This document shows positions 10,135-11,975 of a stretch of 64,000 nt of DNA, piece by piece. This DNA is from Xanthomonas hortorum (lineage in GTDB: Bacteria; Pseudomonadota; Gammaproteobacteria; Xanthomonadales; Xanthomonadaceae): assembly GCF_024339125.1 (NCBI RefSeq), contig NZ_CP101417.1, forward strand, positions 3,173,001 through 3,237,000, read 5' to 3'. Under the pieces are notes generated by a model. It was not told the DNA's origin and did no database searches. It saw only the letters and a list, made by a program, of their open reading frames with translations. A program made the position numbers and the translations under genes. Position 1 is the first letter of the stretch; the number at the start of each line of letters is the position of its first letter.

Positions 10135-10379
10135 TGAAGTAATTCCTGGTAGCGGAATCGCCGTGCGCGGCTGTTGTTGAAAAGTCCGCACATGGATGTG
10201 CGGGCTGTTGCGAGGGACTCGCATCAAAACGCACGTGATTCCGGGGTTGGGCTTCCCTGTCGCCTCCGTGTCGAACCCCTCGCGGGGCACCCCGGCACGG
10301 ATGGCGGCGGCAGGTGTGAATTCGTCGGTGACGTCCGACGTGGACGACGCAATGCGTAAAGACGCAAAACAGCCGGCGG

Positions 10380-10411: not shown

Positions 10412-10577
10412 GTCGGCTTGGGGACGTCCAGCTGCGCTGAAGCTCAACAGCTTGGGCGCCTTGAGAGGTTCATTGGAGGTGTGGATGCTTCGGGGGCAGA
10501 GCAGTTGGTCTGTTGATTGACTGCGGGGCCCTTGCCCGCCCACCATTGCGGGACACGCCGCAAGTACGTCCGTGTAG
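10412..10577 (+). repeat. 307-bp intergenic repeat, copy 1, left part (interrupted by IS110)
   Basis: This is the first 166 bp of a repeat whose intact copy lies inverted at 35865-36171. It ends inside the 108-bp palindromic core, which begins near 10527 (cccttgcccgcccacc). The continuation resumes at 11832. The left edge abuts the rpsB -35 box. Confidence 0.85.
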
Positions 10578-10645
10578 CAACTGTGTTGATCAGGACCTCA
10601 ACCCGCGACCTTTGAGCGGTTTCCTTCAGGCGCGTTCATCGGTAG

Positions 10646-10675
10646 GTGCCGGCCGCTGGCCGGCACGCTTTTTTG
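10646..10675 (+). terminator. Hairpin terminator in the IS110 right end
   Basis: A perfect 9-bp GC stem (gtgccggcc, loop gct) is followed on the plus strand by gc and six T. It faces transcription entering the element antisense to the transposase, so it may shield the transposase from read-in. It is not placed to end the transposase mRNA efficiently. Confidence 0.7.
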
Positions 10676-10701
10676 CGTTTGCGCATGGCCGTCAAATGCG
10701 C

Positions 10702-11625
10702 TCAGGCGGGCTGCATGGCGGCTCTTTCATCGCGCACGCGCGCATTGAGGATGACCAGCATCTTGCGCATCACCGCCACAAGGGCGACCTTGCCCTCCTT
10801 GCCGCGTGCCCGCAGCGCTCTGTAAAAATCGCGCAGACGTGGCTCGTGCCGAGCTGAGGACATGGCCGCCATATACAGCGCCTGTCGGATGTCGGCTCGG
10901 CCTCCGCCAATCCCCCGTTTACCTCGCATCGCGCCGCTGTCGCGCGAGAGCGGGGCAACGCCAACCAATCGGGATATCTGCTTTCCGCTGAGCGTCCCAA
11001 GCTCTGGTAACCGGCACGCCAGCACGGCCAGCAGCACCGGACCGACCCCTTTGAGCGTCTTCAACGCAGCCAGGTGCGGTTGCTCGGTGAGTAGCGTCTT
11101 CAGCTGCCCGGCGATCAGTTTGTCTAACCGCGCCACACTGCGCACAAGCTGGTTCACGTTGCCCTGCAGCAGCTTGCGCAGCGCTTTTTCCGCAACCTGC
11201 AGCAGCTGCTGCCTTGCTGTTTTCAACAGATCCACCAGTTGCCGACGGGCACGCACATGCTCGCCCAGATCGCGCTGCCATGGTTCCAGTGGAACATACT
11301 GATGGAGCTCCATCTTCTCGGCCATGCAGGCCAACATGGCGGCGTCCAGCCGGTCGGTCTTGGCCAGTCCCAAACCGTTGGCCAAGTTGCGTGCCCGTTG
11401 CGCATTGACGCGCGCCACCGGCAATGCGGCGTGATGCAAGGCATCCAGCGCTGCCAGCTCGTAGCCCCCGGTCGCCTCCAGCACCACCTGCCGCACCGAC
11501 AGCGTATTCAGCCAATCGACAAGCTTCCGATGACCGCCTGCGGTGTTGGTGAACTGACGGGTCTGGCCTCGAAAAACCGCAACGTCAAGAGAGTGTTTGC
11601 ACACATCGATCCCGATTCCGCTCAT
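10702..11625 (-). CDS. IS110-family transposase (DEDD recombinase)
   Basis: This 307-residue transposase looks full length and uninterrupted. The N-terminal RuvC-like DEDD domain shows GIDVCK with the first Asp, then LEATGGYE with the Glu, then KTDRLDA with the last two Asp. A coiled-coil middle leads to the C-terminal Tnp domain, which has LKGVGPVLLAVL and RDSGAMRGKRGIGGGRADIR; its Ser is the likely nucleophile. IS110 enzymes use a structured RNA to recognise target and donor DNA, and such an RNA is predicted immediately upstream on the same strand. The element is probably still mobile, judging only from intactness. Confidence 0.95.
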   Translation of the reverse strand: MSGIGIDVCKHSLDVAVFRGQTRQFTNTAGGHRKLVDWLNTLSVRQVVLEATGGYELAALDALHHAALPVARVNAQRARNLANGLGLAKTDRLDAAMLACMAEKMELHQYVPLEPWQRDLGEHVRARRQLVDLLKTARQQLLQVAEKALRKLLQGNVNQLVRSVARLDKLIAGQLKTLLTEQPHLAALKTLKGVGPVLLAVLACRLPELGTLSGKQISRLVGVAPLSRDSGAMRGKRGIGGGRADIRQALYMAAMSSARHEPRLRDFYRALRARGKEGKVALVAVMRKMLVILNARVRDERAAMQPA

Positions 11626-11639
11626 GGGAAATCTCCGCT

Positions 11640-11815
11640 AGGCTAGAAATGTCGAGAGCTCCCTCGCCTGCCCAGTCTTATCGTTTCGAGTGTCACCTCG
11701 GGCAACTGTTCGGGCGAATCAAGGGAGAATCCGGCGTGGGTACCAAGCTACACGGCGATCGCTGAGATCCAGGCTCTCACGGTGGCCCACGCCGGCTCTC
11801 GACACCTAAACTGCC
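11640..11815 (-). ncRNA. Predicted IS110 bridge RNA with readable target and donor guides
   Basis: This is the non-coding end 5' of the transposase. Reading along the transposase strand, a stem (11795-11786 with 11740-11731) encloses an internal loop. That loop holds AGAGCCT (11777-11771), identical to the left target half plus the CT core. It also holds CCGTGTAG (11755-11748), complementary to core plus right target half (CTACACGG). Further 3', ACAGTTGC (11709-11702) is identical to the right element end plus the core C. GATAAG (11682-11677) is complementary to core plus left element end (CTTATC); a small cgag/ctcg hairpin lies between these last two. The order target-left, target-right, donor-left, donor-right matches the scheme established for IS621. 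RNA ends are estimates. Confidence 0.88.
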
Positions 11816-11831
11816 AGATTCCGAACAGATA

Positions 11832-11975
11832 AGGCTCTTACGCGGCATCCATGCCGCGTAAGGTCCCGCGATGGTGGGAGGGCAAGGACCAGTGGAGATG
11901 GCTGGTGTGCATCGTTGCGAGCAGTGAATGCGACGCGGCGGTCAGATGTGGTGCGGCCTGATCAGCTCAGTTCGA
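11832..11975 (+). repeat. 307-bp intergenic repeat, copy 1, right part
   Basis: This is the continuation of the repeat broken by the IS. It contains the inner palindrome (cttacgcggcat type), the second arm of the outer core palindrome ending at 11890, and then about 85 bp colinear with copy 2 up to ctgatcagctc (11958-11968). With 10412-10577 it reconstitutes about 307 bp. Positions 11976-12017 show nothing further. Confidence 0.85.

Follow-up and report, generated by a model that had tools for sequence, protein, structure and literature searches.

An IS110-family left end of Xanthomonas hortorum with a predicted bridge RNA on the transposase strand and a probable sX15 antisense RNA on the other

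The left end of an IS110-family element present in five identical copies in Xanthomonas hortorum very probably carries two opposed RNAs. One is a predicted bridge RNA, read in the direction of the transposase, with four guides that match the repeat used as target and the ends of the element itself; the other strand matches the small-RNA family sX15 and likely gives rise to an antisense RNA that spans the bridge RNA in full. Positions given here are those of the window, the complete 64,000-nucleotide stretch that was analysed (NZ_CP101417.1, 3,173,001 to 3,237,000), and the plus strand is its forward strand. The bridge RNA is a further case of a known kind; its antisense partner is the interesting part.

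The element occupies positions 10578..11833 on the minus strand, and a genome search found five copies identical across the full 1256 bp. All five (5/5) are inserted at the same position of a palindromic repeat, with exact junctions and with surrounding flanks that differ among the copies. The left target half, a hairpin of the repeat, lies at 11834..11858 and ends on the minus strand with gcgtaagagc; the right half, at 10530..10577, starts on the minus strand with CTACACGGACGT. Joined, the flanks read taagagc-CT-acacgg on the minus strand, and the element ends read acagttg-CT-tatc. In one of the five occupied sites a T replaces a C in the right half of the target, a change that would be tolerable through a G-U pair. 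At least 46 empty copies of the repeat were found in the genome, with 104-105 of 105 bases aligned to the joined empty site at 91-98% identity, a lower bound since 40 of the 252 first-look candidates were scored. The short-site 12-mer GAGCCTACAYGG occurs 196 times in the genome, against 0 occurrences of the reversed control. Among the genome places listed, GAGCCTACAYGG sites were often in inverted pairs about 250 bp apart, a REPIN-like arrangement. A match to t44 RNA was also seen at window positions 10246-10336 on the minus strand, just below the threshold (41.8 bits, cut-off 44) and upstream of a gene recognised by eye as rpsB-like.

The transposase gene (10702..11625, minus strand) encodes 307 aa with two Pfam domains over their cut-offs, DEDD (PF01548, 67.8 bits) and Transposase_20 (PF02371, 58.9 bits). 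Its relatives of solved structure are IS621 (8wt6, E 3e-25) and ISCro4. In the alignment with IS621, residues D7, E50, D91, D94 and S230 fall on its RuvC-like and serine positions, which we take to be the catalytic ones. The noncoding ends measure 208 nt on the left and 124 nt on the right, and the RNA lies upstream of the transposase, which is the layout of the IS110 group and not of IS1111. A 3-base inverted repeat, ATA/TAT, has been described at the donor ends of the IS110 group (PMC11208160, available text); here TAT follows the core, and acagttg carries no ATA. A GGAGA motif at 11632..11636 (minus strand) is the likely ribosome-binding site of the transposase gene.

The predicted bridge RNA is contained in the 208-nt left end, on the minus strand. 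Its target-binding loop (11731..11795) is formed by a 10-bp stem pairing 11786-11795 with 11731-11740, and contains the left target guide AGAGCCT (11771..11777), identical to the left flank plus core, and the right target guide CCGTGTAG (11748..11755), complementary to the core plus right flank, with a small hairpin (11757-11769) between them. The donor-binding arm (11659..11728) has an inner stem GCCCG/TGGGC and, further out, a helix of 6 bp or more within 11713-11728/11659-11668. It carries the left donor guide ACAGTTGC (11702..11709), which matches the element end, and the right donor guide GATAAG (11677..11682), which is complementary to the element start, separated by the hairpin CGAG-GTGACA-CTCG (11687-11700). 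Both loops are enclosed by a closing stem with its 5' arm, GTCGAGAGC, at 11795..11803 and its 3' arm, GCTCTCGAC, at 11651..11659; GAGAG is found in the first in 30 of 30 aligned relatives, and CTCTC in the second in 29 of 30, the remaining relative having an N there. A previous reading made from the sequence alone (the sequence-only reading) had proposed an IS110 element with a bridge RNA whose target can be stated from its sequence; the four guide segments, the 10-bp stem and the donor hairpin were all found at the positions it gave, and the guides match both the site and the element ends. Each loop has two guides in the order seen in IS621, at the sequence level; that part of the claim of an arrangement exactly as in IS621 stands, but "exactly" was too strong, given the closing stem around both loops, which is missing in 11 other left ends.

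The match between guides and target is unlikely to be a product of chance. Every CT dinucleotide of the window, 6374 over its two strands, served as a mock core for comparison with the 208-nt left end. A 7-nt left match turned up in that end for 48 of these cores and an 8-nt right match likewise for 48, and none (0/6374) had both in order and 10-60 nt apart, as the real site does. Folding of the 208 nt gave z-scores of -2.81 for the transposase strand and -3.23 for the opposite strand, so that folding alone cannot pick the strand. Folds of single elements gave strand means of -77.7 and -77.8, with the transposase strand better in 15 of 30.

Relatives of the transposase were detected in 32 of 348 genomes of the order (E 1e-45) and in 8 of 369 genomes of the class, the own genome counted in both, and 30 of 41 distinct left ends were aligned. 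The four relatives that carry a name are Xanthomonas, and the closest of them is 99% identical. The consensus structure has 33 pairs, and compensatory changes, set beforehand as a test of the stems, were present in 19 of them; the outer donor helix, aligned pair by pair, gave 237 Watson-Crick, 5 G-T, 1 A-C and 2 other cells. The consensus energy was -47.9 on the transposase strand versus -40.4 on the other, and no pair was exclusive to the other strand.

Guides and flanks, whose covariation the sequence-only reading had proposed as a test, change together among the 28 elements with both flanks, with the exceptions given below. The right target guide covaries as a reverse complement with the core plus right flank (diagonal sum 27.2) and the left target guide as an identity with the left flank plus core (11.4), compared with a largest maximum of 8.6 in 100 permutations, a null that ignores relatedness. 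Other diagonals were also above this null, namely 11.8 (right guide read as identity) and 9.8 (beside the left guide). For the donor guides, the left one is a 7-nt repeat of the element end in 28 of 28 elements, and the right one is an exact 5-nt complement of the element start in 27 of 30 and lacks it in the other 3. The right donor guide did not surface in the donor covariation scan, whose top diagonals are trivial because the element start belongs to the left end. Taken together, the sequence evidence supports the bridge RNA reading well, and the element has a good predicted bridge RNA of an already known kind.

Comparison of the Xanthomonas elements for which both guide and right flank were seen revealed two sets: guides ending in GTAG pair with CTAC flanks (the element described here, L071, L073/L187, L185 and L201), and guides ending in GGAG pair with CTCC flanks (L190, L193 and L202). 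On sequence grounds, these sets represent natural retargeting inside Xanthomonas. The exceptions are Leaf148 (L072) and its near copy L186, with a GTAG guide facing a CTCC flank, an A-to-C target change unmatched by the guide, and L045, which has a broken transposase and a GGGG guide facing a CTCC flank. The left end of L073 begins with two near-identical tandem copies of its first 16 nt, beside the target.

Eight relatives with the same RNA architecture (L183, L132, L125, L182, L181, L178, L123 and L128) are located in attC-like sites, ctaacgc-CT-gaattaagcc, recognised as attC by eye and matched by the guides of their elements; therefore the IS110 group too, and not the IS1111 group alone, appears to target integron cassettes. 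Three further sX15/bridge loci (L203, near 1500-1660, L057 and L058) lie by target-like repeats with no transposase match across the 3.2-kb locus. The L203 RNA locus passes directly into the right target half (ctacatggacg), as if the part from the closing stem through the right end had been deleted.

The only promoter-like arrangement found on the bridge RNA strand requires the joined ends of a circle. A -10-like box, CAGTTT, which may belong to a sense promoter, is located at 11808..11813 (minus strand), with A2 and T6 in 30 of 30 aligned relatives and T1 in 20 of 30. Lying 17 bp before it, CTT (11831..11833, minus strand) would be the second half of a -35-like TTGCTT whose first half, TTG, is at the right end (10578..10580, minus strand). 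The hexamer TTG[CA][TC]T exists solely when the element ends join, and its distance to the sense -10 is 17 bp, without deviation, in all 28 elements (28/28) for which both ends are known. Six elements carry an additional A at the right end together with a left end shorter by one base, and the 17-bp spacing is thereby preserved. Conservation of TTG is not independent proof of a promoter, because the donor guide also demands it. The bridge RNA lies within the likely leader of the transposase transcript and its promoter likely forms only in the excised circle, which makes the earlier description of it as separately encoded doubtful.

The opposite strand of the same region matches the Rfam family sX15 (RF02234), which the sequence-only reading had overlooked. 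The match covers the full model at 11651..11808 on the plus strand with 170 bits (cut-off 55), and is thus antisense to the bridge RNA; its experimental strand was taken from the Rfam model. In the 14 relatives' loci scanned, 11 of 11 matches were opposite to the transposase. Of the 198 family genomes scanned, 22 had a match over the cut-off (35 at E 0.001), as did 21 of 35 genomes of the genus, the own genome counted in each; among the controls the figure was 0 of 14. Two genus genomes carry more such loci than the five of the own genome, G475 with 18 matches and G473 with 10. In Rfam, sX15 is a small RNA of Xanthomonadaceae, and the entry line gives no link to an insertion sequence. No such link was found in the literature searched, a limited library, and one paper recovered there names sX15 only within a table of predicted RNAs, while another uses the term in work that, going by its title, concerns a different subject.

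A candidate promoter for this RNA lies at the transposase start. The -10-like box TAGGCT (11639..11644, plus strand) is 6 nt before the sX15 start and 2 nt from the GGAGA motif, and T1, A2 and T6 of its TAnnnT pattern are kept in 30 of 30 aligned relatives. The -35 is weak, with no clear hexamer in the first transposase codons. At the sequence level, an RNA antisense to the transposase leader, with a -10-like box adjoining the ribosome site, has the layout of Asr9, the antisense RNA of ISPpu9. These features suggest that an antisense copy over the whole bridge RNA is likely made from the plus strand, and a regulatory role of the sX15 antisense RNA here may be inferred.

The box is accompanied by the closing stem in 34 distinct left ends (the 30 aligned ones and 4 near-duplicates). 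Both are absent at that place from 11 others, of which seven are distant left ends and four lie on plasmids of E. coli, Paraburkholderia, Azospirillum and Burkholderia. A TAnnnT is found at another place in G264 and in the Paraburkholderia plasmid. The possibility that the sense and antisense boxes extend the closing stem was ruled out: of the 90 cells formed by their three inner bases, 20 are paired (30 if G-U is allowed), and 0 of 30 rows are paired throughout, so the boxes are more than a longer stem. In a tree of 39 transposases the closing-stem elements do not fall on one side of a branch, and the stem trait takes 3 changes on the best tree. The well-supported branches force 1, and the co-occurrence of stem and box may therefore be a single event.

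The alternative that survives best, although we consider it rather unlikely, is that there is no antisense RNA, sX15 being a wrong-strand record of the bridge RNA and TAnnnT being kept for some other reason. The stems read about equally on both strands, therefore a strand error would leave the Rfam model intact, and a strict scan for sigma-70 promoters and terminators over 11560-11900 found none on either strand. Against it, all 30 relatives (30/30) keep T-A-n-n-n-T at the spacing that a transcript beginning with the first sX15 model base would require, the 11 left ends without the box at that place also lack the stem there, the boxes do not extend that stem, and ISPpu9 makes such an antisense RNA from a similar place (PMC8450116, available text).

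Counts of G-T and A-C cells were also tried as a strand test. Pairs present on both strands gave 9 G-T and 6 A-C of 835 cells; an RNase P RNA control from the same bacterial family (27 of 30 loci used) gave 24 G-T and 2 A-C of 1107. The comparison hints that both strands are constrained, but no claim is drawn from it because the RNase P set is less diverse (87% versus 61% identity) and misalignment adds A-C cells. A tRNA control was discarded, with one tRNA in the 215 sequences.

That the element is a dead relic, its five copies spread by homologous recombination between repeats and not by guided transposition, is very improbable: the copies are identical and lie within a repeat family able to recombine, but there is an open reading frame with all five catalytic positions, and the flanks of the copies differ from one another while the junctions are exact. 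Least probable of all is that the plus-strand RNA, sX15, is itself the working guide; complementarity to the sites is symmetrical, so the strand of the earlier reading could be wrong, the guides of one strand being necessarily complementary in the other RNA, and Rfam holds the sX15 strand, but a target loop followed by a donor loop fits IS621 on the transposase strand only (PMC11208160, available text), the extra pairs exclusive to that strand show 57 G-T against 11 A-C cells (partly biased, the pairs having been picked there), and the plus-strand consensus energy is the weaker one.

With a bridge RNA on the transposase strand and sX15 as its antisense, the following cycle can be proposed. Excision would join the ends and create the TTGCTT-N17-CAGTTT promoter, from which bridge RNA and transposase mRNA would be transcribed together; transposase and bridge RNA would then insert the circle into a further repeat copy by recombination at the CT core. 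The standing promoter beside the transposase start would produce the antisense RNA in the integrated element too, where it could pair with the bridge RNA and leader, tuning transposition. Its effect may be inhibition, by masking the guides, or help, by freeing the ribosome site, as reported for Asr9 of ISPpu9.

A broader proposal, made tentatively and with more doubt than confidence, is that an anti-bridge RNA is built into the elements of a large IS110 branch: sX15, which the catalogue lists with no function, would be antisense to a transposon's guide RNA over its full length, and a single palindromic stem would set the same 5' end for both RNAs. Antisense from the integrated element and bridge RNA from the circle only would then switch an RNA-guided recombinase between silence and movement. 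The present reading connects RNA-guided transposition with a small-RNA family that is already catalogued, and it opens antisense control of bridge RNAs to direct tests. The guide/target pairs in the palindromic repeat, the attC-like sites and the CTCCTACA repeats provide additional natural examples of retargeting.

IS621 and other elements are known to have bridge RNAs and a promoter at the junction (PMC11208160, PMC11187229), and in the available texts of these two main bridge RNA papers the word antisense is absent. With IS621 (Durrant 2024, PMC11208160; Hiraizumi 2024, PMC11208158) the element shares a DEDD and serine transposase, a CT core and a bridge RNA in a long left end, predicted in our case, together with a target loop before the donor loop, guides that read the bottom and then the top strand, insertion in palindromic repeats and a promoter, putative here, across the joined ends. 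It differs in having its own guides and target and, likely, an sX15-type antisense RNA; the GAGAG/CTCTC closing stem around both loops may be a further difference. The seekRNA of ISEc21, of the IS110 type, is similar in its upstream noncoding region, in the circle with a new promoter and in the bottom-strand match preceding the top-strand match, while its target is different (Siddiquee 2024, PMC11187229, available text). The nearest parallel to the antisense RNA is ISPpu9, for which the accessible part of PMC8450116 describes Asr9, a proven antisense sRNA of about 180 nt directed against the transposase leader (244 nt), with a promoter whose -35 is inside the first transposase codons and whose -10 overlaps the ribosome site, and whose loss lowered transposase translation. 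ISPpu9 and the element described here are both IS110-family members with an antisense promoter, putative in our case, at the transposase start, and ISPpu9 is likewise inserted in repeats, of the REP type; it differs in its AG core and in a second, sense sRNA downstream (Asr9 and Ssr9; PMC8450116).
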